64,000 nt of DNA from positions 3,224,001 to 3,288,000 of the forward strand of contig NZ_CP126267.1 of NCBI RefSeq assembly GCF_001864935.2. The letters run 5' to 3'. Source of the DNA: Curtobacterium sp. MCBA15_012. GTDB lineage: Bacteria > Actinomycetota > Actinomycetes > Actinomycetales > Microbacteriaceae. Under the pieces are notes generated by a model. The model searched no databases, was not told where the DNA came from, and was given only the letters and a program-made list of their open reading frames with translations. The position numbers and the translations under genes are program-made. Shown here one piece after another: positions 3,648 to 23,176 of the stretch; the first letter of the stretch is position 1, and each line of letters begins with the position of its first letter.

Positions 3648-3693
3648 GGGGTGGTCCTCTCTCGGGTCCTGTCGTGGTCCTGCAGGGCGACGG

Positions 3694-5169
3694 TCAGCGG
3701 CGGGACGTGTCGGCGAACCAGACGAGCGGTGCCGTCGCCGCGTCGTCCGACGTCGACGCGGGACGCAGGCCGAGGTCCTGCGACGACGCCGCGAGGACCG
3801 TCGCCGGGGTGCGCAACGCCTCGCGGGAACCGAAGTCGAGCGCCGGACCGGCCAGACCGTCGCGCGCCTGCAGGTCGAGCCGGGCGAGCGCATCGGTCAC
3901 GGCTGCGGGCTCGACCGCACGCGCCGAGCCGACGGCTGCGACGAGGGCGACCACGGCGTCGTGGCTCCGGGCGTCCGCGGCTGCAGCGACCGCCGAGAAG
4001 GGACGGTCGCCCGTGAGGCTCTTCGCGTCGGCGTCGTCCGCGAGCACCCGGAGGCCGCCGAGGTACGCCGACATCGCACGACCCTCGGCGTCGGTGGCCA
4101 GGGCTCGGGCATCGTCGGTCTCGACACCGACCGAGCGGAAGTCGCCGCTCAAGCTGCCGCCGGCCTGCGTCAGCGCGGCGGTGAACGCCGGGCTGGTCGC
4201 GTCGGAGGTGAGGACCACGGGCACGGTCACCTTCGCAGCCTGGAGCGCGGCCACGAGAGCACCCTGCCGCGCGCCCGGTCCGCTGAGCACGACGGCATCG
4301 GAGTCGGCAGCCCCTGCCTGGGCACCCGCGGCGCCGTCGAGCGTGCCGTTGGTCGTGTCGACGCCCGTGCGCTGGGCGATGCTCGCGGCCAGGGCCGCCG
4401 TGTCGGGGTCTCGGACGGCGTCGACGAGGTGCGCGACCCGCAGGCCGGCAGGGGCGACACCGCCGAGGTCCACGAGCAGCGGCGACTGCGCACGGCCCAG
4501 GGCCCGCTGGAGCGCGGACGCGACCGAGTCGGTCGACGGCGCCGTCGACCAGGCGTCGTCTGCGGCGGCGGCGTAGGGCGCGACCACCGGGACGCCCGCG
4601 ATCGAGGCGGCGGCGAGGGCCCCGCTCACGTGCTGGCCGGACGTGGCGACGACGATCCCGGCGACGCCCTGCTGGACGAGGGTCTCGACTGCCTTCCGGG
4701 CGCCGTCGACCGACCCGCCGTCGTTCTGCGTGACGAGCTGGACGTCGGTGCCGCCGAGTGCGAGCCGGCGCTCCGCGACGAGGGCGCCCTGCGCGGCATC
4801 GGCCCACTCGGAGCCCTCACCGTCACCGAGGGTGACCACGACACCGATCTTCGTACCGTCGGGGACGTGTCCGACGGTGATCGGCACGGGGGCCGTCGCG
4901 GACACGGCCTCGGCCGGCGCATCGGCGTTCACCCGGACGACCACGATCGCCGCGACCACCGCAGCGGCAGCGAGGACGGCCGTCGAGGCGATGACGACGG
5001 TGCGTCGACGCTTCCTGTCGGAGTCGGGTGCCGTGTCCGGTCCGGTGTCGGTGTCGGTGTCACGGTCGGCGGCGCTGTCGCTGCTGATGGTGGCTCGGTC
5101 GACGGCGTCACTGCCGGCAGCGGTGGGCTCCGGCGCGGGGGCGTCGGCACGGTCGGTGTGGCGGCTCAT
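3694..5169 (-). CDS. Membrane-anchored type 1 periplasmic-binding-like protein (Peripla_BP_6 fold)
   Basis: 491 residues. An acidic, Asp/Thr-rich N-terminus (1-50) ends in DRKRRR, followed by one membrane helix (~57-80). The rest is an extracytoplasmic domain resembling Leu/Ile/Val-type ligand-binding proteins (KIGVVVTLGDGEGSEWADAA, then GIVVATSGQHVSGALAAASI). Ordinary ABC binding proteins are lipoproteins with a short signal; this one is anchored by an internal helix with a ~56-residue cytoplasmic tail, and no ABC transporter genes are beside it. The start overlaps the stop of the upstream lipoprotein gene (ATGA), and the T7SS-like ATPase follows. It may therefore be a sensor or structural part of that secretion system. 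Its ligand is unknown. Confidence 0.8.
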   Translation of the reverse strand: MSRHTDRADAPAPEPTAAGSDAVDRATISSDSAADRDTDTDTGPDTAPDSDRKRRRTVVIASTAVLAAAAVVAAIVVVRVNADAPAEAVSATAPVPITVGHVPDGTKIGVVVTLGDGEGSEWADAAQGALVAERRLALGGTDVQLVTQNDGGSVDGARKAVETLVQQGVAGIVVATSGQHVSGALAAASIAGVPVVAPYAAAADDAWSTAPSTDSVASALQRALGRAQSPLLVDLGGVAPAGLRVAHLVDAVRDPDTAALAASIAQRTGVDTTNGTLDGAAGAQAGAADSDAVVLSGPGARQGALVAALQAAKVTVPVVLTSDATSPAFTAALTQAGGSLSGDFRSVGVETDDARALATDAEGRAMSAYLGGLRVLADDADAKSLTGDRPFSAVAAAADARSHDAVVALVAAVGSARAVEPAAVTDALARLDLQARDGLAGPALDFGSREALRTPATVLAASSQDLGLRPASTSDDAATAPLVWFADTSRR

Positions 5170-7919
5170 CGTGCTCCCCCGATGCGGAAGGCGTACAGGG
5201 TCGTCGAGGTCGCACCCTTCGGGACGTCGTACCGGAACGCGGGCAGCTCGTCGGCGGCGTCGAGCGACGCACGGAACTGCTGCTGCTGGAGCAGGATGCC
5301 GCCCACGTCCTCGGCGCGGACGTTGGCGTACCCGGCCGCGTTCTGCGAGGCGAGCGCCAGCTGGTAGTCGGCGGAGTCGGACTTCGCGGCGCTGGTCGCC
5401 ATCGCGCCCAGGATCCCGGAGCCGTTCACCTTCCGGTCGCCCAGGTCGAGCATGACCCGGTTGAGGTCGCCGGAGAGGAGCGTGTTCGCTCCCTCGACGT
5501 CACGGACCGAGGCGCTCGTGCTCGCGTCGATGCGCTGCAGGCTCGCCGCGGTCTGGCTGCTCACCGATGCGGCGAGTTCGCTGCCCTGCTGCTGGAGCGT
5601 GCCCTTCTGCTGGTCGATCGTGCCCTTGGAGTCGCTCGTGACCTCCTGCGCGGTGGTGCGGAGTCCGGCGATCGACTGGTCGAAGGCCTGGATGACCGAC
5701 TCGCGGCTGGCGCCGGCGGTGTCGCTGACCTTCCGCACCTGGTCGTCGATGAGCGCCTGCACCTGCTTGCTCGAGTCGTCGGACGCCTGCTGGAACGCCG
5801 CGCGGACGGCGTCCTGGAGCTTCGACTGCTGGTCGGCGACCTTGACGAGCTGCCCGTTGACCACCGCCCCGCTGGCCGCGGCCTGCCCGACACGGTCCTG
5901 CAGGTCGCGGACCGACCCACTGACCGACCCGTCGTCGGCCGCGATCGCCGATCGGACCTGCTGCACGCCCCCACGGAGCGCACCGACGGACGCGGCCAGG
6001 GTGTTCGTGGCCGCACCGACACCGGTCGTCGACTGCCGGTCGGTCTCGGCGATGAGTGCGTCCCAGGCGGACGCCTGCTGCGCGAGCCGCTCGTCCATGG
6101 GCGTGTCGAAGCCGAGGCCGGGTCGCAGCGTGGTGCCGTCTGCAGCACCCGGGCACGGCGTGGCGGTGAGGTACCCGCGAAGCGCGTCCGCGTCGACCTG
6201 GTCGATACGGCCGAGCGTCACCAGGCCACAGACCTGGTCGGCGAGAGCCCGGTTCTGCGACTGCAGTGAGGTGTTGAAGAACGGTCCGTCCGGAGCGTCG
6301 CCGAGCACGCCACGCGCGCTCCGAGCACGTTGGTTGATGCTCGCAAGACCCTCCTGGACGGGGCGGACCGACTGCTCGGTCGTCGTGATCAGGGCGTCCA
6401 ACTCCGTCAGTGCCTCGTCGACGCTGCCGTCGTCGCTTCCGACGTTCTCGAGCCGGCTCGCGATCTCGGCGAGCTGGTCGTTCAGCGCCTTCGACTGCGC
6501 GATCGCCGTCTTCGACAGGTTCGGGTCGAGCCCGGCCGCGAGCTCCTGCCCCTTCGAGACCAGGCCGATGAGCGAGGTGTTGACCGCAGCCGACGACGCC
6601 CAGAGCGCACAGGTCAACGAGCCACGGGCCTCCTCGCTGGCGCACGCCGTCGCGTCCGGCGACGCCGGACCGACCGACGCGGCGAGCTGCGCGCTCACCT
6701 GCTGCTTGCACTGCTCACTCGCATCGGCGTAGCCGTCGAGCTGCGAGGAGATGCGGAGCAGGTTCGCGTAGACGCTGCCGCGCGCCCCGTCGGACTTCGG
6801 CATGCTCTTGCAGACGTCGCCCTCGAGGACCGGCGTCGGGGCGGTGGCCGACGTGTCCCCGAGCAGCGCGTCGAGGCTGCTCGTCGTCTGCTGCAGCTGC
6901 TGCAGCACCGTGGACTGCGTCGCCTGGACGGTCGAGCCGAGATCGCCGTTCAACGACGTGAGCTGACCGGAGAGCGACTGCATTGTGCTCGCGAGTGACG
7001 AGCTGCTGTCCTTGAGACGCTCCGCGGTGCGCACGCCGAGGGTCTGCGAGGTCGTCTCGAGGTTCGACCGGACCTCGGTGATCGTGCCACCGGCGCGCGC
7101 GAGGACCTCGTTCACCTGGGCGATGAGGTCGATGGTGCGGCGCTGGAGGGCGAGTTCGGAGTCGGTCTGCGACCCGAACGCACCGTTCATCACGCCCGTC
7201 GTCGAGAGATCCGTCGTGAGGCCGGGCTGCGCTGCGACGTCGAACGCCGGCGTCGACAGGTCCTCGACGTCGGCGACGAGGTGCAGCGTGCTGCTCGCCC
7301 CCGAGGTCGGCGGTGCGAGCAGACGGCCCCACTGCACGACCGCGTCGCCGTCGCCGTTCGTGCTCACGACACCGTCCGTCGCGGCGCCGCCGTCGACCGC
7401 CTGGGTGACGACCCGGTCGGGCCGCACGCCGGGGAGCACCGTCGAGGCCGCGATGCTGAACGGCGCGCCGACCAGGGCCGGCGTCGTCCGCGCGGAACCG
7501 GCCACGTCGTAGGAGATGTTCTTCGGCCGGACGGTCAGGTTCTCGATCGTCAGGTCGATCTCGACGCGACCCGAGTACCCGTCGAGGTCGCTGAGGTCGG
7601 TACCCGACCGCTTGTCGGTCGTGTACTGCGTCGTGATGCGGAGCGGGAGGTCTGCCGCGGCGTCGGCGGCCTCGTGCTGCGTGGTCTTCGAGGACGAACG
7701 GTCGCCGGCCACCGAGATGGTCGTGTCCGACACCGCGCTGACGGCACCGTTCGTCGTGAGCACGGTGTCGACGGTCTGCAGGACCCGTGACGGGTCCGCG
7801 ACCTGGTCCTGATCTGCGGTGCAGCCCACGAGCACCAGCGCGAGCGCGCCGGTGATGGCCACGCCACCGATCAGTCGGTCACCTGTTCGTGCTCCGGTCC
7901 CCCCGGCGCGCCTGAGCAT
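5166..7919 (-). CDS. Large exported lipoprotein, Ser/Ala/Gln-rich and largely helical, unknown function
   Basis: 917 residues from ATG 7919, chosen because GAGGGGGA lies 8 bases upstream; a GTG directly before it is also possible. The N-terminus is a lipoprotein signal with lipobox VLVGC (Cys33). The first third is beta-rich (resembling a surface domain). From ~230 onward the sequence is a long run of heptad-like helices rich in Gln, Ser, Ala and Asp, with a Cys-containing insertion (~400-600), reminiscent of tape-measure or coiled-coil surface proteins. It is the first gene of an operon with the periplasmic-binding-like protein and the T7SS-like ATPase. I do not recognise the family. A cell-wall-spanning or scaffold role in secretion is speculation from context. 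Confidence 0.78.
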   Translation of the reverse strand: MLRRAGGTGARTGDRLIGGVAITGALALVLVGCTADQDQVADPSRVLQTVDTVLTTNGAVSAVSDTTISVAGDRSSSKTTQHEAADAAADLPLRITTQYTTDKRSGTDLSDLDGYSGRVEIDLTIENLTVRPKNISYDVAGSARTTPALVGAPFSIAASTVLPGVRPDRVVTQAVDGGAATDGVVSTNGDGDAVVQWGRLLAPPTSGASSTLHLVADVEDLSTPAFDVAAQPGLTTDLSTTGVMNGAFGSQTDSELALQRRTIDLIAQVNEVLARAGGTITEVRSNLETTSQTLGVRTAERLKDSSSSLASTMQSLSGQLTSLNGDLGSTVQATQSTVLQQLQQTTSSLDALLGDTSATAPTPVLEGDVCKSMPKSDGARGSVYANLLRISSQLDGYADASEQCKQQVSAQLAASVGPASPDATACASEEARGSLTCALWASSAAVNTSLIGLVSKGQELAAGLDPNLSKTAIAQSKALNDQLAEIASRLENVGSDDGSVDEALTELDALITTTEQSVRPVQEGLASINQRARSARGVLGDAPDGPFFNTSLQSQNRALADQVCGLVTLGRIDQVDADALRGYLTATPCPGAADGTTLRPGLGFDTPMDERLAQQASAWDALIAETDRQSTTGVGAATNTLAASVGALRGGVQQVRSAIAADDGSVSGSVRDLQDRVGQAAASGAVVNGQLVKVADQQSKLQDAVRAAFQQASDDSSKQVQALIDDQVRKVSDTAGASRESVIQAFDQSIAGLRTTAQEVTSDSKGTIDQQKGTLQQQGSELAASVSSQTAASLQRIDASTSASVRDVEGANTLLSGDLNRVMLDLGDRKVNGSGILGAMATSAAKSDSADYQLALASQNAAGYANVRAEDVGGILLQQQQFRASLDAADELPAFRYDVPKGATSTTLYAFRIGGAR

Positions 7920-8197
7920 CACGATCGTCCCCCTCAAGAATCGACTGCTCCTCCGATGGTAGCGACGGAGCACCTCGCCGACCGGCTTCTCCACAGGGAT
8001 CCTGGCCCCCGTTCGGGCCACGGCGCACCTGCTCCCACGGCCGGGTCCCGGCTTGACCAGCGTCGGTGAACTGTTATTCTGCACATGTGTTCTGGGGGGA
8101 TCGCCGAACGGACCGACGGTCGGCGGAGCACGGACGTCGGGCTGGTCGGCAACACGCGTTGCCGGCCAGTCCGCGCTCGCTCGGTACGGTGTGACGC

Positions 8198-8821
8198 ATG
8201 TGGACCACGGTGCTGTCACTGGGCATCGCCCTCGTCGTCGGCTACGCGATCGTCGTGCTGGTCAAGGTCACGACGGAGCGGCGCGACGAGCGACGGGCCG
8301 ACCGAGGCCTGGAGCTCCCGCGCGAGGCCGGCGCCATCGTCACCGTCCGCCTCCGTCGATGGCAGTGGATGACCATCGCCGTCGTCTCGATCCTGTTCGC
8401 GGTCGTCGGGGCACTCGCAACGGTGGTGACGGTCACTGCGCTCGCCTCGGGAGCGTCCGGCTCCGACGCGGGGCCGGGACCGGCGATCACCGCCGGGGCG
8501 ATCCTGCTGTGCGGCGTCGGTGGCCTCCTGCTGTCCGGTTCGATGCGGCGGACCCGGATCCTCGGGATGGACGACCACGTGTTGGTCCGGCAGGGGTTCC
8601 GTGCCGAACGACGCGTCGCGGTGTCCGAGATCGCCGCGGTGCTGCCCCTCGCGAACCAGTACGGCGGACTCGAGGGCCGTGCGGCCGACGGCAGCCGGTT
8701 GTTCTCGGTGATGGGTCTAGCCCGCGGCTTCACGGCGTTCGAGGAGTACCTCGACGAGCGCATCGAGCGGCCGGATCACCCGGACCCGACGGCGCCCTGG
8801 GTCCCGCCGGCAGCGGGATGA
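8198..8821 (+). CDS. Membrane protein with PH-like C-terminal domain, unknown function
   Basis: 207 residues. There are three likely membrane helices (~4-24, 58-82, 92-110). The soluble tail (RILGMDDHVLVRQGFRAERRVAVSEIAAVLP) has the look of a bacterial PH-like domain, which usually sits on the membrane surface. A TACGGT box ends 7 bases before the ATG and no Shine-Dalgarno is visible, so the mRNA is probably leaderless. The gene is divergent from the secretion operon and its stop lies 8 bases from the convergent small membrane protein gene. Function unknown. Confidence 0.72.
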   Translation: MWTTVLSLGIALVVGYAIVVLVKVTTERRDERRADRGLELPREAGAIVTVRLRRWQWMTIAVVSILFAVVGALATVVTVTALASGASGSDAGPGPAITAGAILLCGVGGLLLSGSMRRTRILGMDDHVLVRQGFRAERRVAVSEIAAVLPLANQYGGLEGRAADGSRLFSVMGLARGFTAFEEYLDERIERPDHPDPTAPWVPPAAG

Positions 8822-8829
8822 TCGAGCGG

Positions 8830-9288
8830 TCAGGGCTCGACACGGTGGTCGTAGGCGGCCGGTGAGATCCCGACTGTTGCCAGGACGTCCCGCAGTCGGT
8901 ACGTCGCTTCTCCGACCGTGAACCGAGCCCGGCGCGATTGCTCGAGCGCCTTCGCGACGCGGTCGGCGTTGAACGAGTTGATCCCGTCCTGCAGCAAGAT
9001 CTTGCCGCACTCCTCGGTCACCACCACGACCTGCGTACCGCCCCCTCCACCGCCGCGGAAGGATCGGCTCGACTCGGAACCCGTTGCTGCGCTGCGGACG
9101 GTACAGGTGACGGACATCCGGTGACCATCGTCGTACGAGATGAGCGCGACCGGGACGACGAAGAACAGCAGCGCGGGGAGGACGATGACCAGCAACACGA
9201 GGAAGATCCCGACGGCGGGGCGCTTCTTCGTCGTCAGGGCCGTGGCTCTGTGCCTCAGGGTTCCCGCCCCCCTCCTCGAACCGACCAC
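8830..9288 (-). CDS. Small membrane-anchored exported protein, paralogue of the protein behind the RHS gene
   Basis: About 152 residues if read from GTG 9288; the start is uncertain because the frame stays open to 9414 and the best Shine-Dalgarno (AGGAGG) lies inside the frame before CTG codons. One membrane helix (GIFLVLLVIVLPALLFFVV) precedes an exported domain. That domain shares SYDDGHRMSVTCTV, the SSRSFRG turn, EECGKILL and ATYRLRDVL with the protein at 10446-10835. Both keep two cysteines, suiting a disulfide outside the cell. It may be an orphan immunity gene or a relic of an earlier RHS tip; that is inference. Function unknown. Confidence 0.65.
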   Translation of the reverse strand: MVGSRRGAGTLRHRATALTTKKRPAVGIFLVLLVIVLPALLFFVVPVALISYDDGHRMSVTCTVRSAATGSESSRSFRGGGGGGTQVVVVTEECGKILLQDGINSFNADRVAKALEQSRRARFTVGEATYRLRDVLATVGISPAAYDHRVEP

Positions 9289-9958: not shown

Positions 9959-10189
9959 TCAGGTCCGCAGGAAGCCCCTCAGGTCGAACGCGCTCTTCTC
10001 TGCCCCGAAGCGATACGGCCCGCCAGGCACAACTTGCTCGGCGAAGCGTTGCATGTTCGCCCGTGTGACGTCCTGTTGGTACAGCAGGTTGCCGCACGCG
10101 GTCTCGAGAGCACGGTCCGCCGCAACGCGGATCCCGTCTCGGCCGGACGAGCCGAGCAACGGCTTGCTCCACGCGGCGAGTCGGGTTCA
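9959..10189 (-). pseudogene. Possible remnant of a coding cassette (about 75 residues open, no good start)
   Basis: This minus-strand frame between two stops reads like protein (ALETACGNLLYQQDVTRANM, then AEKSAFDLRGFLRT) with balanced composition. It lacks an ATG/GTG with a ribosome site; the only starts are TTG or weaker. It may be the tail of a displaced RHS tip or an old immunity gene. No family recognised; it could also be chance. Confidence 0.3.
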
Positions 10190-10286
10190 CGGAGCGTCGC
10201 CGGAGCGGCATCAACAGCTCCGGCGCACTCCACTTGCGCCACCCTCGGTCTCCCGGCCGGGTGCTCGCTCCTGGGAACTGCGAAGG

Positions 10287-10380
10287 GCCCGAACTGCGCG
10301 ATCGGGCGATGTCAGCGCACACCACCGGAGGCCCGAACTGCGCGATCGGGCGATGTCAGCGCACACCACCGGAGGCCCGA
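10287..10380. repeat. 44-bp tandem repeat, 2.1 copies
   Basis: Two identical 44-bp units (10287-10330, 10331-10374) begin GCCCGAACTGCGCGATCGGG, followed by the start of a third. Each unit holds the inverted repeat CCCGA/TCGGG. It lies in the gene-poor gap behind the RHS-linked gene. Confidence 0.9.
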
Positions 10381-10445: not shown

Positions 10446-10835
10446 TCAGTCAGGTCGCTGGACTTCGACGGACTGATTGATTGCCCGAAGCTGATCCCTG
10501 AAGCGGTAGGAGGCGGCTCCGACGATGAACTCGTAGGTCTGTCCCGCGTGGAACTCTGCTGCGATCCTCGGAGCGCTTGAGGCAGTCACCTGCCTCCGGA
10601 TGAACACCGTGCCACAGTCGGGCGAATCGATCCGCACTTGGTTGTACGTCGCGCCGACCCCCCTCACGGACCTCGACGAACCGTCGCCGGCAACTGCGGA
10701 ACTGACGACACACTTCACTGTCAGTGGGTGTGACGCGTCGTAGGCCTTCAAACTGATCGGTGCAACGAAGATCAGCGCGATGACGACCAGCACCCCGAGG
10801 AGCCAGGTGCCGAAGATGAGCTTCTTGGCTCGCAT
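10446..10835 (-). CDS. Small membrane-anchored exported protein, candidate RHS immunity protein
   Basis: 129 residues from ATG 10835, with AAGGA six bases upstream; a GTG at 10865 would add ten residues. A basic N-terminus and one membrane helix (~5-27) precede an extracytoplasmic domain with two cysteines (VKCVVSSA, PDCGTVFI). It lies directly downstream of the RHS gene on the same strand, 31-61 bases after its stop. That is where polymorphic-toxin loci place the immunity gene. A paralogue lies at 8830-9288. The export topology would suit protection against a toxin acting at the membrane or outside it. Function is inferred from position only. Confidence 0.65.
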   Translation of the reverse strand: MRAKKLIFGTWLLGVLVVIALIFVAPISLKAYDASHPLTVKCVVSSAVAGDGSSRSVRGVGATYNQVRIDSPDCGTVFIRRQVTASSAPRIAAEFHAGQTYEFIVGAASYRFRDQLRAINQSVEVQRPD

Positions 10836-10896
10836 CGAGCGTTCCTTGCGCTTCTGCTGGGTCACTGATTCTTGCTTTCTTCTCGATGCTTGGCGG

Positions 10897-13800
10897 TCAG
10901 TGCTTCGGCGCCGTCGGTCCGATCGACCCATCCAGGACACCGTTGACGGCGTCCTGGAGCAGATCACCACCTCGATCACCGTTCGGATCGAGCATCTCAG
11001 TTCCGACACTTCCGAGGCCTCCGACGAGCCGATCAGTCGTCTCACCCACCACCGTGGTCCATCGGGCGACGTTCGGCGCAACTGCGTGGGCGCTCCATCC
11101 TTCTGGGTAGTGCGGCGTGATCGGAAGGTTTTCTGTGACGGCCGAGGTCACCTTGCTTCCGATCACGCTCAGGCCCGCACCGGTTCCGAATCCCGTGGCC
11201 GCTGACTGGACGTAGCCCCCGAGCGTCTTGGGTTCACCATCCGAGTCCATGCCGTACTCGATGGAACTGGTCGTAGCACCGGAGATCCCAGACGCGCCCG
11301 CGGCCCTTCCCGTCGACGAGAAGGCGATCGACGAGGCCCTTTGCACGACCGGGCTGGCGGCCCTCCCGACGATCGGGCCGAGCTTGGCCAGGCCAGTCGC
11401 CGCGATACCGCCGACCGCCCCGCCGACACCACCGATCAAGGTGTCGACTCCGACTTTCTTCCAATCGACCTGACCGGTCGTCGCCTTCTGACTACCGATC
11501 GAGACGCCACCCCCGATCAGTGCCCCCGAGGCTGCGCCGATCAGCGCGACCCCGACAGGCCCGCCGACACCCGTGAACATGAGACCGACACCGAGTGCGA
11601 CCGCCCCCGCCGCGGCGACGTACTCCCAGTTGTCGTCCCACCATTGTCCGACCGCCGCGAACGCCCCCTGGTTCGCATCCCGGTACGCCTGGATGTCCGC
11701 GTCCGTCGCCGGCCGCAACCCCAGCGGGTCGACGGCGTGCACGGGGTCGTTCCCCGCGTAGGAGTACGGGCTCGCGGACCACGCCGCCCCGAGCACGGGC
11801 GACAGCGGGTCCGTCGACAGGAAGCCCTTCACCCCCGGGTCGTAGACACGCGCACCGAGCCACTCGAGCCCGCCGACGGACACGCCGCCGCTCGCGGTCA
11901 GCGCGACACCGCCGGGGAGGGCGACACCGCCCGGCAACGTGGTGCCTCCGACGGCCTCGAGCACGGCCCAGGGATCGGACGGATCGGTCGCACGCGCGCT
12001 CCGCCACCCGGGCGCCGTCCACACGGCGTCGATCGCCACCACACCGCCGGGGAGGTCGAGGACGTCCGCGCCCCCGATGCACACCAGACCCGGCACGCTC
12101 GCCGCGGAGTCCCACCACGTCTCGGCACCACCGACCGAGGCCAGTTCACCCAGTGCGTCCGTCCAGAGGTCGGTCCGCGCGGTCTCGGCGTACGAGGCGT
12201 CCCGGCTCGTGATCCCGGCGAGGGTGCCGAGGGCGGACCAGGCGTACTCGACGGTCGAACCGTCGGCGTCGGTCCGGCGGACCCGTCGACCGAGGCCGTC
12301 GTACCGGTACTCGGTCCGGACGCCCCCTTGCTCCGTGGCGACGAGCTCGCCGGCGAGGTCGTACGTGGAGCGCGTCTCCGTCCCGTCGACGAGCTCGCGG
12401 ACCAGTCGGCCGCCGGCGTCGTACTCCCACTCGGAGTCGCCGGCCCGGACGAGCTGACCGGCGGCGTCGTACCGGTGCTCGATCCGCCCGTGAGGCCCGT
12501 CGATCGCGGTGATGCGGCCGTCGTCGTCCCGCTCGATGCGCGTGGTCGTGACGCCGTCGGAGGAGGTCGTCGTGTGCGCGACCAACGCGCCGCGTTCGTA
12601 GGACCACGACTGCACGAGGTCGCCCGTGACCGACTCGACGATGCGGCCGGAGGCGTCGTACCGGAACGTCGCCGCGCCGAGGCGGTCCCGCTCGACGGCG
12701 GTCGCGCGTCCGGCGGCGTCGCGGCGCCAGGTCGTCCTGGTCCCGGACGGGTCGGTGCGTGCGGAGCGGCGCCCGTCGGCGTCGTACTCCCAGCGGATCG
12801 CGTCGGCTCCGCGACTGCGACGGACGAGGAGTCCGCGCCGGTCGTACTCGAGTTCGTGGTCGACCGTCAGGCCGGCTCCCCGGGTGTGGTCGGTGACGAC
12901 CACGGTCCGGCCGACTGGGTCGCGGCGCGCCTCGGTCTGCACCTGCCCGTCGACGAGGACCTGGTGCTCCCGCCCGGCACCGTCGTACGTCCACGCCGTC
13001 GTCCGACCGTCGGGGTCGGTCTGCTCGACGCGGCGTCCGGCCGCATCGAGACGCACGGCCGTGCGCCGCCCGAGCGGATCCGTGACGGCGACGAGGCGGT
13101 CGGCCTGGTCGTACTCGCGGCGCGTCACGCCGCCGGCGGGATCGGTGGTCGCGACCACACGGCCACGCTCGTCGTACTCGTGGTGGGTGACCCCGCCGAG
13201 CCCGTCGACGACCTCGACGACCTGCCCGGCTGCGTCGTGGCGGAAGCGACGTCGACCGAAGCGTGCGTCGTGGACCGAGACGAGCCTCCCGGCCGCGTCC
13301 CAGCGGTACCGACTCGTTCCCGCACCGGCCGTCGTCTGCTCGACCACGCGCCCGACCGCGTCGTAGGTGGTCCGCTCGACGTCGCCCGTGGGCGACGTGC
13401 GCGCCACGACCCGCGAGTCGACGTCGTAGGTCAGCGTGGTGCGCGCCCCGGTCGCGTCCACGGCGGCAGACGGACGCCCGCACGTGTCGTACTCGTAGGC
13501 GGTGCGCGCCCCGGAGGGCGCGACGACGGCCGTCACCCGCCCCGCGAGGTCGCGTTCGATGCGGGTCAGACCGCCCTCGCCGTCGACGAGCTCGACCGGG
13601 CGCCCGGCCGCGTCGTAGGTGACGAGCTCGGAGCCGGCCTCGGCGCTCGTCGACTCGACGGGACGACCGAACTCGTCGAACCGGACGGTCGTGGTCGAGA
13701 ACGCGTCCCGCAGGGTCGCGACACCCGTCGCGACGTCCCGCGCGACGTCCTGACGGACGCCCGTCGGGTCGATCGTCGCGGTGATGCTGCCGTTCGCGTC

Positions 13801-16248
13801 GTACTCGCGACGCCACGTCGCGCCCGTCGGGTCGGAGACGGCCAGGAGGCGCGACAACGCGTCGTGCGCGAAGGTCCAGACCGCGTCACCCGGCAGGGTC
13901 AGGGACGCCAGGTTGCCCTGGTCGTCGAAGGAACGGATGACGCGTCGTCCGAGCGGGTCGGTCGTCGCGCGGAGTTCCCCGTCGGGCCCGTACTCGAAGG
14001 TCGTCGTCCCGCCCAGCGGGTCGGTGACCGCCGAGACGCGGCCGGCGGCGGTGTGCTCGAAGCGCCACGTCGCGCCGTCCGGGTCGCGGCGCTCGTGCAG
14101 CAGGCCGGCACCGTCGTAGCGGTACTCGGTCCGGGCCCCGGACGGGCTCGTCACCGCGGTGGGGCGTCCAGCGGGGTCACGCTCGATGCGCGCGGTGTCG
14201 CCGACGGCGTTCGTCGTGGCGACGAGCTCGCCGTGCTCGTCGTGCTCGAGGAACAGGACGACGCCGGTCGGGTCGACGACGCGGGTCAGCAGCCCGTCCG
14301 ACCACGTGAGTTCGGTGCGCCCGCCGACGGGATCGGTGATGACCGACGGGTCGCGGTCGTCACCGCGGTACTCGTAGGTGACCACACCGCCGGACTCGGC
14401 GACCACGGTCGTCGTGCGGTCCTGGTCGTCGTAGCCGTAGGTGACGTCCCCGCCGGAGGGCGTGACGGTGCGGATCCGTCGTCCGCGCTCGTCGTACGCG
14501 TGGACCGTGACGGAGCCGTCGCGTTCGGTGACCGACACGAGGTTGCCGTGCCGGTCGTAGCTCATCGACTGCCGGTGGTCGTCCGAGTCGACGACGCCCA
14601 CGAGCCGACCCTTGGCGTCGGCGAGGTAGGAGTTCGACCGGGACCCGTCGTGGTCGGAGACCACGGTGACACGGCCGGGGAGGTAGGCGAAGCGGACGGC
14701 CCGGCCGTGCGGGCTCACCTGCTCGACGACGCGACGGTGGTCGTCGTAGGTGTTGTCGACCTCGACGACGCCGTCCGCGCTCGTCACGGTGGTGACGAGG
14801 TCGTCGTCGTTCCAGCCGTACCGGCGGGCGCCCGCGGCACCGACGACCGAGACCAGTCGTCCGCGGTCGTCGTACTCGTACTCGACGCGTCGACCGTCCG
14901 AGCCCCGCACCACGGCGACGCGCCCTGATGCGTACTCGACGTCGATCGCGCGACCGCGCTCGTGGACGAGCCGTCGGACCGATCCGTCCTCGTCGCGTTC
15001 GACACGCACCGCGGTCCCCGGTCCGCCGCGCTCGCCGAGCCAGACGCCCGAACGGGTGAACTCGATGCGTCCACCGGTGTTGTCGCGGACGACGAGCCGG
15101 TCCTGCTCGGCCACGAGCCACCGGTTCTCCCCGACACCGCGCTCCCACCCGTCCGCCGCCCGGGGGAAGCGGACCTGCCGGCCGTCTGCCCCGACGAAGG
15201 AGGCACCGTCGTCGTCCAGCTCGAGGCGGGTCTCGAGGACCGAGGCCCAGCCGGGCCCGAAGAGCCCGACGTGGTCGTCGAGCGAGTTGTACATCCGCGT
15301 GATCCGCAGGGCCGGCGAGGACCCCGGGAAGTCGAGGTCGGTCTCGGGCTCGAGGAAGTTGCCCGTGGTGGTGTTCACCGGGTCCATCGAGAACCCGGTC
15401 GTCGGCTGCGCGCCGTACGCCGAGGGCGGGTCGAACTGCAGCTCGGAGCGCGTCGCGGCGACGCCGGCAGCCTGCAGCGCCGCCGCCAGTGCGGAGTCGG
15501 CGACGGTGGACACGGTGCCTTCTCCACCGGCGGCGGCGAAGGCGTCGGCGACGGTGTTCGCCCACTGGACGTCGCGGTCGTTCGCGGCGAGCCACTGCTC
15601 GAACGCGCTGACCAGGTTGCCCGCGTCGATGTGCCCCCACGAGCACCGCGCCGCGAAGTCCTGCAGCGCACCCCGGACCGCAGCGGGCTTCCCGTCGAGG
15701 TCGCGGTTCATCCCGGAGCAGGCCGTCGCGAAGGAGCGGAGGTCCGCCGGACGCGCCGACGAGGTCCCCCCGCCGCCACCGCCCCCCGCGCCCGGGTCCG
15801 GGGTCTCCCGCGGTCGTGCGGTCACGTTCGGCGCCGGGAAGGTCGGTGCGGGCTCGTTGCCGGCCTTCGGCATCGGGTCGAGCTGCCACGCCTCGGTCCA
15901 CCACTCCTCGATGCCGCTGCGCGCGTCCTCGCGGGCTTGCCACTCCCGCGCGGTCTTCCGGCGTGCCCGCTCGGCCGCTGCCGCTTCCTTCATCGTGTCG
16001 ACCCAGCCGGCGATGGTGCGGAGCGTCTCGACGATGGTGCGCCCGTCACCCGCAGCGGTCGAGGCGTTCTGGGTGAAGAGCTCGGAGAACCGGCCGCGGA
16101 ACTCCTGCGACGCCGTGTTGACGGCGGTCTGGCGGGAGCCCGCCTGGCCACTGACGGCGTTGGCGGCCGCGTCGAGCGCACGCTTCAGGGCGTCGGCGGT
16201 CGCGTCGTCGAACTGGATCGGCTCCGTGTTCGCGTGGATCTGGGCCAT
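10897..16248 (-). CDS. RHS/YD-repeat polymorphic toxin-like protein with WXG/LXG-like N-terminus
   Basis: 1783 residues from ATG 16248. Residues 1-150 are mostly helical with Trp-rich turns (GIEEWWTEAWQLDP near 114), like the WXG100/LXG export domains of T7SS effectors. A Pro/Gly linker follows, then a DUF6531-type segment (PVNTTTGNFLEPETDLDF, ~283). About 1050 residues of YD repeats (YDAAGR, YDERGR) come next, and the RHS core ends at DPLGLRP (~1506-1512). The 271-residue tip starts with two Gly/Ala-rich hydrophobic stretches, typical pre-toxin linkers, and ends in a polar tail that I cannot assign to any toxin family. The tip DNA is less GC-rich than the core. The upstream open frame to 16383 is low-complexity and was not used as start. 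Confidence 0.88.
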   Translation of the reverse strand: MAQIHANTEPIQFDDATADALKRALDAAANAVSGQAGSRQTAVNTASQEFRGRFSELFTQNASTAAGDGRTIVETLRTIAGWVDTMKEAAAAERARRKTAREWQAREDARSGIEEWWTEAWQLDPMPKAGNEPAPTFPAPNVTARPRETPDPGAGGGGGGGTSSARPADLRSFATACSGMNRDLDGKPAAVRGALQDFAARCSWGHIDAGNLVSAFEQWLAANDRDVQWANTVADAFAAAGGEGTVSTVADSALAAALQAAGVAATRSELQFDPPSAYGAQPTTGFSMDPVNTTTGNFLEPETDLDFPGSSPALRITRMYNSLDDHVGLFGPGWASVLETRLELDDDGASFVGADGRQVRFPRAADGWERGVGENRWLVAEQDRLVVRDNTGGRIEFTRSGVWLGERGGPGTAVRVERDEDGSVRRLVHERGRAIDVEYASGRVAVVRGSDGRRVEYEYDDRGRLVSVVGAAGARRYGWNDDDLVTTVTSADGVVEVDNTYDDHRRVVEQVSPHGRAVRFAYLPGRVTVVSDHDGSRSNSYLADAKGRLVGVVDSDDHRQSMSYDRHGNLVSVTERDGSVTVHAYDERGRRIRTVTPSGGDVTYGYDDQDRTTTVVAESGGVVTYEYRGDDRDPSVITDPVGGRTELTWSDGLLTRVVDPTGVVLFLEHDEHGELVATTNAVGDTARIERDPAGRPTAVTSPSGARTEYRYDGAGLLHERRDPDGATWRFEHTAAGRVSAVTDPLGGTTTFEYGPDGELRATTDPLGRRVIRSFDDQGNLASLTLPGDAVWTFAHDALSRLLAVSDPTGATWRREYDANGSITATIDPTGVRQDVARDVATGVATLRDAFSTTTVRFDEFGRPVESTSAEAGSELVTYDAAGRPVELVDGEGGLTRIERDLAGRVTAVVAPSGARTAYEYDTCGRPSAAVDATGARTTLTYDVDSRVVARTSPTGDVERTTYDAVGRVVEQTTAGAGTSRYRWDAAGRLVSVHDARFGRRRFRHDAAGQVVEVVDGLGGVTHHEYDERGRVVATTDPAGGVTRREYDQADRLVAVTDPLGRRTAVRLDAAGRRVEQTDPDGRTTAWTYDGAGREHQVLVDGQVQTEARRDPVGRTVVVTDHTRGAGLTVDHELEYDRRGLLVRRSRGADAIRWEYDADGRRSARTDPSGTRTTWRRDAAGRATAVERDRLGAATFRYDASGRIVESVTGDLVQSWSYERGALVAHTTTSSDGVTTTRIERDDDGRITAIDGPHGRIEHRYDAAGQLVRAGDSEWEYDAGGRLVRELVDGTETRSTYDLAGELVATEQGGVRTEYRYDGLGRRVRRTDADGSTVEYAWSALGTLAGITSRDASYAETARTDLWTDALGELASVGGAETWWDSAASVPGLVCIGGADVLDLPGGVVAIDAVWTAPGWRSARATDPSDPWAVLEAVGGTTLPGGVALPGGVALTASGGVSVGGLEWLGARVYDPGVKGFLSTDPLSPVLGAAWSASPYSYAGNDPVHAVDPLGLRPATDADIQAYRDANQGAFAAVGQWWDDNWEYVAAAGAVALGVGLMFTGVGGPVGVALIGAASGALIGGGVSIGSQKATTGQVDWKKVGVDTLIGGVGGAVGGIAATGLAKLGPIVGRAASPVVQRASSIAFSSTGRAAGASGISGATTSSIEYGMDSDGEPKTLGGYVQSAATGFGTGAGLSVIGSKVTSAVTENLPITPHYPEGWSAHAVAPNVARWTTVVGETTDRLVGGLGSVGTEMLDPNGDRGGDLLQDAVNGVLDGSIGPTAPKH

Positions 16249-16274
16249 GGTCGGTTCCCCCCGGAGTGTGCATC

Positions 16275-16372
16275 GCACTGGTCGTGCTGGTCGTGCTGGT
16301 CGTGCTGGTCGCACGGGTCGTGCTGATCGCACGGGTCGTGCTGATCGCACGGGTCGTGCTGGTCGCGGCCGT
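16275..16372. repeat. 9-bp tandem repeat array
   Basis: About ten 9-base units of the types GTCGTGCTG and GTCGCACGG/ATCGCACGG lie head to tail between the WXG100 gene and the RHS start. It is a minisatellite; unit number could change the spacing of the RHS leader. Confidence 0.85.
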
Positions 16373-16387
16373 CCCCCGACCACGGAC

Positions 16388-16419
16388 GCCCGGGCCGTCC
16401 AGGTTCGGACGGCCCGGGC
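16388..16419 (-). terminator. Strong hairpin between WXG100 and RHS genes
   Basis: Perfect 13-bp inverted repeat (arms GCCCGGGCCGTCC / GGACGGCCCGGGC, loop of 6), 15 bases past the WXG100 stop. There is no clear U tract. It probably ends or attenuates WXG100 transcripts so that RHS is made at a lower level. Confidence 0.7.
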
Positions 16420-16434
16420 GGTGGAGTCGGCTGG

Positions 16435-16716
16435 CTAGGCGCCGCCACCCGCGGTGAAGATGTCCTGCGAGATCTTGTCGAGCTGGGTGCGGAGCTGCTC
16501 GAGCTCCGTCTTCGCCTTGTCCAGCGCCGCCTTCGTCTCCGGCCAGGTCGATCCGCGGAACGTCGACGCGAGCGGGCCGTCCCACACGTTCGAGTCCGAC
16601 AGGATGCGACCCTGCGCGTCGAGCTGCGAGATCTGGTCGGTGAAGCCGCCGTTGACGATCGACTGGATCTGCCGGATGGCGGTCTTGGCCTGCTCGGTGG
16701 AGAGCACACGTGACAT
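16435..16716 (-). CDS. WXG100-family (ESAT-6-like) protein
   Basis: 93 residues from ATG 16716, with GAGG six bases upstream. The length is typical and the WxG turn (VWDG, Trp45-Gly47) lies between two helices. These proteins form helical hairpin dimers exported by type VII systems, often with or as partners of effectors. It sits 187 bases ahead of the RHS gene on the same strand, so it is a plausible partner for export of the RHS protein by the ATPase at the left edge. Confidence 0.9.
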   Translation of the reverse strand: MSRVLSTEQAKTAIRQIQSIVNGGFTDQISQLDAQGRILSDSNVWDGPLASTFRGSTWPETKAALDKAKTELEQLRTQLDKISQDIFTAGGGA

Positions 16717-19157: not shown

Positions 19158-20101
19158 GCGGCGGGACCGCGAAGCCCGTCGTCGCGGCGGGTGCGGTCGT
19201 GTGGCGCGAGCACGCGGGCGGCCCGCTCGTGCTGCTGGTGCACCGCGACCACCACAAGGACGTCTCGTTCGCCAAGGGCAAGGTCGACCCCGGTGAGAGC
19301 GTGCCGACGACCGCGGTCCGCGAGATCGAGGAGGAGACCGGGTACCGCGTGCACCTCGGCGCACCGCTCGGCACGGCCGAGTACGTGCTGCCCAGCGGAC
19401 GGGACAAGGTGGTGCACTACTGGTCGGCGCGGGTCTCCGGCAAGGAGTACGACCGCGCCGGGACCTTCCGGCCGAACGACGAGGTCGCGGCCGTCGAGTG
19501 GGTGCCGATCGACCAGGCCCGGAAACGATTGACCTACGACCGTGACGTCGCGATCCTCGACCGGTTCGCCGAGCGCGTCGCCGCCGGGGAGCACCGGACC
19601 TTCGCCCTCATCGCGCTCCGGCACGCCAAGACGATCCCCGGCTCCGAGTGGGACGGGCCGGACGCGACGCGCCCGCTCCTGCCCGTCGGCCGGTCGCAGG
19701 CGAAGGCGGCCGCTGCGCCGGTCGCCGCGTTCGGACCGAAGAAGATCGTCAGCAGTACTGCGGCCCGGTGCCTCGCGACCGTCGAGCCGCTGTCCGCCCG
19801 GACGCACGTCGGCGTCGCGAGCACGCCCGACATCAGCCAGGAGGCCCACGACCGCGGTGCCGCGGACGTCAAGGGCGTGGTGCGGAAGCGCCTCGACAAG
19901 GGCAAGTCGACCGTCCTGTGCTCGCACGGGCCCGTGCTGCCGGACATCATCGCGCGGATCGCGGCGGTGACGGCGGACGACAGTCGACGGTTCGACCTGC
20001 GGCGGGCGGCGATGCTCTCGGTCGGCGACTTCGCCGTGATGCACATCGCCGGGGACAAGCTCGTGGCGGTCGAGACCCACCGGAACACCGTCCCCGCCTG
20101 A
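19154..20101 (+). CDS. mutT1: MutT1-like Nudix hydrolase fused to a histidine phosphatase
   Basis: 315 residues from GTG 19154, overlapping the ppk stop (GTGA). The Nudix box is complete (from G42: [16 protein letters not shown]), which in MutT enzymes binds Mg and cleaves nucleoside di- or triphosphates. The C-terminal half is a SixA-like histidine phosphatase (LRHAKT, His157; [10 protein letters not shown]). This two-domain layout is that of mycobacterial MutT1, which removes 8-oxo-dGTP and diadenosine polyphosphates. Position beside ppk also matches. The exact substrate here is inferred. Confidence 0.92.
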
Positions 20102-20390
20102 TGCGACCGGCCCGGCGCGACCGGTCCGACACCACCCGCTTGACGTGACCGGCCCGGCGCGGCCGGCCCGGCGCGACCGGTCCGACACCACCCGCTTGAC
20201 GTGACCGGCCCGGCGCGGCCGGCCTGACGCGACCGGTCCGACACCACCCGCCTGACGCAGCCGGCCCGACGCAACCGGTCCGACGCCACGCGACTGACGC
20301 GACCGGGCTGACTCGACCGGCCCGACGCAACCGGTCCGACGCGACCGGCCCGGACGGCTCCGGCCTGACGCAGCCGGCCCGACGAGACGT
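20102..20390. repeat. 56-bp tandem repeats decaying into 14-bp subunits
   Basis: Units of 56 bp at 20109-20164 and 20165-20220 are near identical; a third (20221-20276) is degenerate. Shorter motifs like GCGACCGGTCCGAC continue to ~20360. It is non-coding; frames across it are low-complexity. Confidence 0.85.
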
Positions 20391-20653
20391 TCCCGGCAAC
20401 GGCAGGCGCCCGAGCGAGCGGCACCGCCGAGCTGCGCCGTCCTCCCCCGGCCGAGCGCACACCGCGACCGCGACCGCCGGCCCCGTGCCGCGCACTGGAG
20501 GACCCCCACCGCCCCGACCGCGACCGCGCCCACCGGACCCGCACCGCGCCTCCCGACCGATGCATCCGCATGCGCCCACCGGACGCACGCCGATCCCGAT
20601 CCTGCACCCGGTCCGGAGCCGCCGCACGGCGCCCACGGTCACGACAACCCCTC
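20391..20653. other. Non-coding GC-rich gap before the pst promoter
   Basis: About 260 bases of skewed, low-complexity sequence. I see no gene or strong structure before the PHO box. Confidence 0.5.
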
Positions 20654-21891: not shown

Positions 21892-21903
21892 GGCCCGCTG
21901 AGC

Positions 21904-21943
21904 GCCCGGACGTCGATCCCACCCACCTGGTCGACGTCCGGGC
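21904..21943 (+). terminator. Hairpin after pstS
   Basis: Perfect 13-bp inverted repeat (GCCCGGACGTCGA / TCGACGTCCGGGC, loop 14), 12 bases past the pstS stop. It likely stabilises pstS mRNA or terminates part of the transcripts before pstC. Confidence 0.75.
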
Positions 21944-21964
21944 ACTCGCCCGTCCGGCATGCAG

Positions 21965-22165
21965 CGAGCGCCAGCGCCAGCGCCAGCGCCAAGCACCAAG
22001 CACCAAGCACCAAGCACCACGCACCAAGCAAGCACCACGCGCCACGCACCACGCACCAAGCACCAAGCACCAAGCACCAAGCACCAAGCACCAAGCACCA
22101 AGCACCAAGCAAGCACCACGCACCACGCACCACGCACCAACCAAGAACCACGCACCGAGCACCAC
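21965..22165. repeat. Hexamer and heptamer repeat array between pstS and pstC
   Basis: Four GCCAGC-type hexamers are followed by about two dozen 7-base units alternating CCAAGCA and CCACGCA. The region lacks a gene. As RNA it would be almost unstructured, between the pstS hairpin and the pstC ribosome site. Confidence 0.88.
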
Positions 22166-22228
22166 CCCGCAGCAGCACTCCCCCCGCCGCTCCCCCACGG
22201 AGCCCGGCCTCCCTCCGACAGGAGTCCC

Positions 22229-23176
22229 ATGACGACCGCACCGGCCCAGCCAGGGGCCACCGTCCCCACCAAGCCGAAGCCCGTCGTCCGCGTCGGCGAC
22301 CGCGTGTTCTCCGCGGCGTCCGTCATCGCGGGTGGCCTGATCCTCTTCGTGCTCGTGCTCGTCGCCGCCTTCCTGGTCTGGCAGAGCATCCCCGCCTTCA
22401 GCGCGAAGGTCGGCGAGCTGCCGAACAACGCGACGAACTTCTGGGACTACGTCGGTCCGCTCGTCTTCGGCACGGTCTGGTCCGCGCTCATCGCGCTGGT
22501 GATCGCCGTGCCGCTGTCGCTCGGCATCGCGCTCTTCATCTCGCACTACGCGCCGCGCCGCGTGGCCCCGGTCCTCGGCTACGTCATCGACCTGCTGGCA
22601 GCGGTGCCGTCGGTCGTCTACGGCCTCTGGGGCATCGTGGTGCTGGCGCCGTTCGTGAAGCCGTTCTACGGGTTCCTCAACGAGCACCTCGGCTGGATCC
22701 CGCTCTTCTCCGGCCAGGTCTCCGGCACCGGCCGCACGATCCTCACCGCATCGATCGTCCTCGCGGTGATGGCGATCCCGATCATGACCGCCGTCATGCG
22801 TGAGATCTTCCTGCAGGCACCGCGCCTCAACGAGGAGGCCGCCCTGGCCCTCGGTGCGACCCGCTGGGAGATGATCCGCCTGTCGGTCCTGCCGTTCGCC
22901 AAGTCCGGCATCGTGTCCGCGATCATGCTCGGGCTCGGCCGCGCGCTCGGCGAGACGATGGCGATCGCGCTCGTGCTGTCGGTGTCGACGAACGTCACCT
23001 TCCAGATGCTCACCTCGCTGAACCCGTCGACCATCGCCGCGAACATCGCGCTGCAGTTCGCCGAGGCCTCGGGCACGGCGCTGAACGCCCTCGTCGCGTC
23101 CGGCCTGATCCTCTTCGTCATCACCCTGGTCATCAACATGCTGGCGCGCTACATCGTGCGCAAGCGGGTCTCCTGA
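22229..23176 (+). CDS. pstC: Phosphate ABC transporter permease
   Basis: 315 residues from ATG 22229, with AGGAG five bases upstream; frames reaching into the repeat array were not used. Six membrane helices and the permease EAA loop (NEEAALALGATRWEMIRLSVLP, split here by family alignment) identify it. It forms the membrane channel with PstA. It is cotranscribed with pstA (14-base gap). Confidence 0.95.
   Translation: MTTAPAQPGATVPTKPKPVVRVGDRVFSAASVIAGGLILFVLVLVAAFLVWQSIPAFSAKVGELPNNATNFWDYVGPLVFGTVWSALIALVIAVPLSLGIALFISHYAPRRVAPVLGYVIDLLAAVPSVVYGLWGIVVLAPFVKPFYGFLNEHLGWIPLFSGQVSGTGRTILTASIVLAVMAIPIMTAVMREIFLQAPRLNEEAALALGATRWEMIRLSVLPFAKSGIVSAIMLGLGRALGETMAIALVLSVSTNVTFQMLTSLNPSTIAANIALQFAEASGTALNALVASGLILFVITLVINMLARYIVRKRVS

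Follow-up and report, generated by a model that had tools for sequence, protein, structure and literature searches.

A stretch of 64,000 nucleotides from the genome of Curtobacterium sp. MCBA15_012 (the window; positions 3,224,001–3,288,000 of a single 3.58-Mb contig) carries a minus-strand operon of three genes. In order, these encode a WXG100-like small protein of 93 residues (window positions 16435–16716), an RHS protein of 1783 residues in a reading frame from ATG (10897–16248), and a protein of 129 residues (10446–10835), whose reading frame lies 61 bp past the RHS stop codon with no gene in between. A scan of the sequence placed one promoter-like site directly upstream of the WXG100-like gene and found no terminator-like sites between 9900 and 17000, a pattern compatible with a single operon, on the weak evidence that such scans provide. 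A sequence-only reading of this DNA had proposed an RHS toxin exported by a type VII system, with an untyped tip and with its immunity protein encoded directly behind it.

Assignment to the RHS proteins is confirmed by profile scans. PF05593 matches 27 stretches of the protein and DUF6531 is also present (Pfam), and the Rhs core profile TIGR03696 matches residues 1461–1512 with 39.3 bits, above its cut-off of 32.5 (NCBIfam). The RHS/YD shell (11716–15900) terminates in the Rhs-associated core with the motif DPLGL, known from other Rhs proteins and after which cleavage presumably occurs; beyond it lies a tip of 272 residues. The N-terminal domain (residues 1–116; 15901–16248) is a putative export or trafficking domain. 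It could be aligned across 11 RHS proteins, including that of the window, with an invariant F-x-G-x-F. This region had been read as WXG/LXG-like; a conserved domain does exist, but no WXG or LXG profile of Pfam matches the N-terminus of the window protein or any of the 11 aligned N-termini at E ≤ 1, and a comparison with PDB sequences returned nothing (best E 0.18). The domain can occur apart from the shell. In genome G271 (locus L118), an N-terminal domain 31% identical to that of the window (E = 6e-18) is joined straight to the same tip family without RHS repeats, and the small gene still follows. Further copies of tip and immunity gene lie near this locus.

The tip is built in two parts. 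A protein search with the last 273 residues, in which scoring was confined to the 7982 candidates with the most words in common and whose counts are lower bounds, found at least 79 proteins: at least 40 cover no more than 40% of the query, at least 20 cover at least 97%, and at least 19 fall between. The proteins with least coverage match the stretch at the start of the tip and then continue into other C-termini, a few of which have annotated toxin domains, PF14436 and PF15656 among them. Because of these partial matches, the residues up to about 1618 can be regarded as a stalk held in common, with the final 165 residues forming the exchangeable part. The stalk, a shared pretoxin region (11395–11715), contains hydrophobic helices, which reach 1.9 on the hydropathy measure KD19, and toward its end a G95xxxG99xxxG103 motif conserved in a 35-sequence alignment. 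The variable C-terminal domain (10900–11394; 165 residues) is rich in Gly, Ala, and Ser, is modeled as helical, and is the candidate toxin. Records bearing the names Curtobacterium, Arthrobacter, Paenarthrobacter, and Leifsonia contain it, and an identical copy of the domain occurs in Curtobacterium sp. UCD-KPL2560, the nearest named relative as judged by the tip.

The description of the tip as untyped is borne out: its best matches in Pfam (E 0.025) and among PDB sequences (E 0.033) are not confident, no family names it, and a fold search gave nothing at E ≤ 0.001. The idea that the tip is an orphaned or degenerate remnant was considered and rejected, since conserved columns run to its very end. 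Among 35 aligned sequences, G259 is invariant and G263, G266, and P267 are kept in at least 90%; the tip at locus L069 ends slightly earlier.

The structure model of the 129-residue protein (pLDDT 89.8) has a single long helix at the N-terminus and then a beta domain. In 73 sequences Cys42 is invariant and Cys74 is at least 90% conserved. The predicted membrane helix spans residues 2–35. Membrane proteins obey the positive-inside rule in their topology, and by this rule the beta domain is predicted to be extracytoplasmic. The protein had been described as small and exported; a membrane helix is predicted, but in light of the structure model the product is better termed membrane-anchored than exported.

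Linkage and matched divergence of tip and small gene

To follow the pair through the genus, 66 genomes were searched separately with the tip and with the small protein, and the places found were then mapped with profiles. Tip matches occur in 27 of the 66 genomes, in 31 rows. Seven of these rows, with E from 1e-5 to 1e-3, lie in other reading frames of 800–909 residues and were left out of the tip count, three more are detached fragments, and 21 are fused to RHS proteins, including one in a short frame of 664 residues (G188). An immunity-family gene lies 69–145 bp downstream of every one of the 21 RHS-fused tips, so that the immunity position assigned to the small gene is well supported. The family as a whole is present in 42 of the 66 genomes. 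Outside the genus, and leaving out one 28-residue fragment, four of six tip places have the small gene within 160 bp; at one it lies about 600 bp away, and one weak fragment is without it. The same order of tip and small gene is found in Arthrobacter gallicola and in two other genera. A search by gene order gave 3 of 396 genomes, among them that of the window. A scan of contigs with an alignment of close tips yielded four loci, of which one (L125) has no match to the tip profile and was treated as a chance hit. The pattern of genes goes beyond chance: the WXG100-like gene with the RHS gene recurs in other genomes, and in all 21 cases the small gene comes after the tip.

Three near-duplicates (L065, L067, and L080) were dropped from the divergence test and from the tree, leaving 18 non-redundant loci. 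Among these the RHS cores are 61–97% identical and the tips 24–78%, and such a variable C-terminus after a conserved core and pretoxin is a feature of polymorphic toxins. Distances between tips correlate with distances between the adjacent small genes (r = 0.76, p = 0.0001, 18 pairs). No correlation was found between tip and RHS core across the 18 loci (r = 0.05, p = 0.26), nor between tip and the second small gene at the 13 loci compared (r = −0.12, p = 0.82).

Displaced modules provide a second line of evidence. Six remnants of tips were found detached, each downstream of an RHS gene whose present tip is a different one or a different variant of the same one. A small gene follows five of them, and in every one of these cases the best-matching intact tip and the best-matching first-position immunity protein belong to the same locus among the 21. 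From divergence and displaced modules together, tip and small gene are predicted to be matched pairs, a prediction that is weaker once close pairs are set aside. The two very probably constitute a toxin–immunity module, in which we infer the tip to be the toxic part.

Further copies of the small gene lie downstream of the operon. The first, a degenerate copy (9959–10159, minus strand), retains only the C-terminal part (hidden Markov model E = 1.1e-9, positions 66–114 of 122). It is followed by a second paralogue (8830–9216, minus strand; start codon uncertain), an orphan that is 38% identical to the first copy and groups in the tree with the first-position immunity protein of genome G196, to which it is 65% identical. 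In the 84-member family tree, first-position copies are scattered among array copies (17 changes in 18 rows, clustering no greater than with shuffled labels), as expected from repeated replacement of tips with retention of the immunity genes. The spacer that separates the first immunity gene from the degenerate copy contains a 44-nucleotide sequence in two exact tandem copies (10286–10373).

Probable type VII secretion genes at the locus

The gene for an EssC/EccC-like ATPase starts about 7 kb downstream of the operon and runs off the left end of the window (1–3690, minus strand). Its product has an FHA domain (45.7 bits) and three FtsK/SpoIIIE stretches (FtsK 158.7 bits). The type VII profiles TIGR03928 (464 bits, cut-off 778) and TIGR03924 (372 bits) both match below their curated cut-offs. 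A Ser/Thr kinase gene (Pkinase 170.3 bits) lies divergently beside the ATPase gene, outside the window. The WXG100 neighbor reported earlier is present, but its scores too are below curated cut-offs: 16.7 of 27.3 bits for PF06013 and 19.3 of 44.85 bits for TIGR03930. Together, the FHA-bearing EssC-like ATPase, the WXG100-like protein, and the Ser/Thr kinase are among the features by which the T7SSd type is recognized, and the layout resembles that type.

These associations recur in relatives. An EssC-type match at E ≤ 1e-40 was found in 64 of the 66 genomes of the genus, in one to four places each and not always at the RHS locus; none in the 66 genomes exceeds the curated cut-off. Among 14 control genomes only Bacillus subtilis matched at E ≤ 1e-40. 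Because 11 of the 14 matched at a looser threshold, only strong EssC matches are counted here. In the genus, 30 of the 53 immunity clusters have an EssC match no more than 16 kb away. A WXG100 gene was found upstream of the RHS N-terminal domain at 14 of 19 loci examined, that of the window included, and also in A. gallicola. It was not found at the other five, one of which lacks a recognizable N-terminal domain in the stretch fetched, nor in the examined stretches of two loci of G271 (L118 and L120). From this gene context, with an EssC-like gene in the window and a WXG100-like gene upstream, both recurring in relatives, export of the RHS protein by type VII secretion is highly likely, and the earlier proposal is upheld on this point.

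A probable second set of type VII genes was noticed outside the window. At locus L136 (G000:C1:1955000–1974500), an EssC-like gene (TIGR03928, 548 bits) has three WXG100 matches close by, of which one exceeds the Pfam cut-off; the genome therefore probably has two type VII loci. A Curtobacterium genome announcement identified no type VII secretion genes but noted a WXG100 gene (PMC8830320), a statement that contrasts with the EssC-type matches in 64 of 66 genomes.

Site of action and alternative explanations

Since the partner is predicted to be membrane-anchored and to have its beta domain outside, the tip is likely to act outside the cytoplasm or in the membrane. This agrees with the earlier suggestion of action at the membrane. 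The same gene slot in sister genomes is occupied by other combinations. One tip class, which looks alpha/beta by eye and occurs at six loci, some near-identical (L068, L083, L087, L088, L089, and L092), is followed by soluble proteins of 99–118 residues that lack a hydrophobic stretch and whose open frames begin 1–2 bp past the RHS stop. Behind each of three further glycine-rich tip types, at seven loci (L074, L091, L095, and L108; L079; L099 and L081), comes a hydrophobic membrane protein, and it is possible that these tips, too, act on the membrane. Pfam names none of the six that were scanned among these 13 other tips.

It is fairly likely, taking all steps together, that the operon encodes an antibacterial, type-VII-exported RHS toxin that acts at the outer face of the membrane and is guarded by anchored immunity proteins. 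The WXG100 partner and the N-terminal domain would bring the RHS protein to the nearby FHA-EssC machine, with the tip held in the RHS shell and probably cut free after DPLGL. At the target cell, the pretoxin helices and the glycine-rich tip would act at the outer face of the cytoplasmic membrane or within it; most likely the tip would insert and dissipate the membrane potential. The 129-residue protein, anchored in the membrane and exposing its beta domain on the outer side, would neutralize the cognate tip there. The further copies would be orphan immunity genes left behind by tip exchange, and they may protect against the tips of other strains. As enrichment of glycine zippers in the tip is mild and its hydropathy low, a depolarizing or pore-forming mode is put forward only tentatively.

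Several of our results weigh against this explanation. Tip divergence is tracked by the pretoxin (r = 0.64, p = 0.0001) as well as by the small gene, and genes that are linked and travel together would diverge in concert even if their products did not bind. A few close pairs account for much of the correlation between tip and immunity protein: it falls to r = 0.32 when pairs above 60% tip identity are removed, leaving 145, and, when the set is collapsed to 13 tips, to r = 0.31 (p = 0.024), and the nearest locus by tip is also the nearest by immunity protein in only 7 of 18 cases. Among the remnants, one has no gene behind it, the immunity gene at L082 is partial, and the margin at L074 is narrow; moreover, immunity matches were the reason for fetching the loci with other tips, so that the presence of such genes there is not evidence. 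The structural case for membrane insertion is also incomplete. The all-helical tip model is weak (pLDDT 66, pTM 0.40). KD19 does not exceed 1.4 in the 21 tips, too low for a classical membrane helix, and values of 1.9–2.5 are reached only by the shared pretoxin. Glycine-zipper motifs are mildly enriched in the tip (73 versus 57.9 ± 7.9 in shuffled sequences, with 17 of 500 shuffles as high) and are depleted in the pretoxin stretch tested (6 versus 16.9, with 500 of 500 shuffles as high). The tip classes show a modest contrast in glycine content (15–16% versus 17–24%). Finally, of the 84 rows in the family tree, 17 lie away from RHS genes, 8 as solitary genes and 9 as C-terminal parts of longer membrane proteins.

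Homologues of the small protein unlinked to RHS genes were the finding that the sequence-only reading had named as counting against it, and it has in part been made. The solitary and fused forms mostly make up separate clades, and they may serve another role. One solitary copy (L085) groups with two first-position, RHS-adjacent copies, and three array rows at RHS loci (L083, L095, and L108) sit inside the fused-form clade. By analogy with ExiCD of Staphylococcus aureus, an immunity family with orphans appears to be a better explanation of the unlinked homologues than a refutation of the module. The fused forms, in which an immunity-type beta domain is C-terminal on a longer membrane protein, were seen at L105, L106, L107, L109, and L111–L115.

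One rival is unlikely but has a precedent: the tip could be an enzyme of the wall zone, acting for example on lipid II or peptidoglycan, with the anchored protein as an inhibitor like TipC. In the TelC/TipC system, an anchored immunity protein with an outside domain counters a wall-zone enzyme, and several paralogues are present per operon (PMC6193138); the predicted topology of the 129-residue protein is the same as that of TipC. The conservation of the tip, however, does not look enzymatic. All four columns conserved at 95% are Gly, as are 9 of the 17 conserved at 80%, while two of the others are Asn and A, Y, S, D, P, and H have one column each; in the 21 tips, no acidic, basic, His, or Cys residue stands in an invariant or 90% column. 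The tip model, though weak, is all-helical, and Pfam, PDB sequences, and the fold search gave nothing confident.

This shortage of catalytic-looking residues in a glycine-rich, helically modeled domain would also suit a non-toxic structural or anchoring end, for which the small protein would be a membrane adaptor or chaperone in display or export, and relatives of the small protein without RHS genes nearby would fit such a role. Yet the tip occupies the slot that other C-termini take after the shared pretoxin, a few of them with the toxin domains PF14436 and PF15656; displacement moves the tip and the small gene together, and they are kept as orphans; and an adaptor is not expected to diverge with the tip instead of the RHS core. 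We consider this alternative very improbable. Action of the tip in the target cytoplasm, with the small protein traveling along as a bystander, is more improbable still. Hitch-hiking of linked genes can give co-divergence, and the correlation is modest among distant pairs, but the 61-bp gap in the window holds no other gene, the linkage persists across genera, and orphan copies are maintained in multi-gene arrays.

A membrane-acting tip guarded by an anchored partner would have several counterparts among known systems. TspA/TsaI of S. aureus likewise pairs a type VII toxin of polymorphic C-terminus, acting from outside the membrane, with an adjacent membrane-bound immunity protein that has several homologues at the locus (PMC7456083). 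TspA, however, has 469 residues and TsaI five predicted membrane helices, as against one helix and a beta domain here, the toxins being compared by description only. TelC/TipC of Streptococcus intermedius has operon paralogues as well, and an immunity protein whose N-terminal membrane segment and inhibitory domain in the wall zone are like the arrangement predicted here (PMC6193138), but TelC is a lipid II phosphatase whereas no catalytic residue set is apparent in the present tip, and the soluble domain of TipC has a seven-stranded sheet, larger than the present beta domain. EsxX/ExiCD of S. aureus is a membrane-depolarizing type VII toxin whose immunity genes also occur as orphans in antitoxin islands (PMC12744356), which also reports orphan immunity genes for type VII toxins; it differs in its LXG scaffold, its extended glycine zipper, and its immunity proteins, two polytopic membrane proteins and a soluble pair. 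Tse5/Tsi5 of Pseudomonas aeruginosa combines an RHS shell, a membrane-active tip, and membrane-bound immunity (PMC9637101, PMC10684867, PMC12744356), but belongs to type VI secretion in a Gram-negative organism and can be set beside the present pair by description only. Ionophore tips of contact-dependent inhibition (CDI) systems are similarly diverse and have specific membrane immunity proteins (PMC11630599).

In its secretion genes the locus resembles T7SSd of Olsenella uli, also of the Actinomycetota, in which an FHA-bearing EssC-like ATPase, WXG100, and a Ser/Thr kinase are found and an RHS protein with unknown tip lies beside the machine (PMC11217815). There the immunity protein is predicted to be cytoplasmic. 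The words "Curtobacterium" and "Microbacteri-" are absent from the main text of that paper. The papers found on Curtobacterium with Rhs or type VII secretion do not describe the present pair, nor do the matches listed for Microbacteriaceae and related terms, subscription papers being outside the search.

The present pair thus appears to resemble TspA/TsaI, EsxX/ExiCD, and TelC/TipC in its working, and by sequence it is a member of none of the families tested. It represents an ordinary kind of system but a new, well-supported predicted family, and its interest lies in the mode of action. We suggest, tentatively, a toxin–immunity family of the Actinomycetota, named in none of the libraries searched, in which glycine-rich helical RHS tips are exported by T7SSd-like machines, act on the outer side of the membrane, and are countered there by single-helix proteins with a disulfide-bonded beta domain. 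In Curtobacterium, multi-gene arrays of these proteins, replenished as tips are displaced, would serve both as a record of the tips of other strains and as a shield against them. Such a family would add a single-helix extracytoplasmic immunity architecture directed against a glycine-rich tip, and it would tie RHS proteins of the Actinomycetota to a type VII machine. The pair is amenable to testing: it comes with 18 natural variants and with orphan copies in the same genome, and its probable type VII locus is found repeatedly across the genus. One prediction is that the specificity of the orphan at 8830–9216 resembles that of the immunity protein for the G196 tip (65% identity) and not that of the immunity protein for the window's own tip (38%).

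Neighboring genes and minor features

Three further genes lie between the immunity array and the ATPase gene. A small membrane protein is encoded on the plus strand at the end of the array (8198–8821); a kinship with the longer immunity-domain proteins was considered and dropped as weak (E = 0.055). Next, on the minus strand, are a 967-residue protein with a lipoprotein-like N-terminus, a possible envelope component (5166–8069), and a 491-residue protein with an N-terminal hydrophobic segment and a weak match to periplasmic binding proteins (3694–5169). In the T7SSd system, TsdI is a large component with a signal peptide and a C-terminal membrane helix, and TsdH is also a component (PMC11217815). 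General library scans, which included no direct comparison with TsdI or TsdH, gave no confident family match for either the 967- or the 491-residue protein. Elsewhere in the window, low-complexity stretches at 19950–20600 and 21900–22400 have translations that repeat units such as APSTKHQ and SGRLRQAG.

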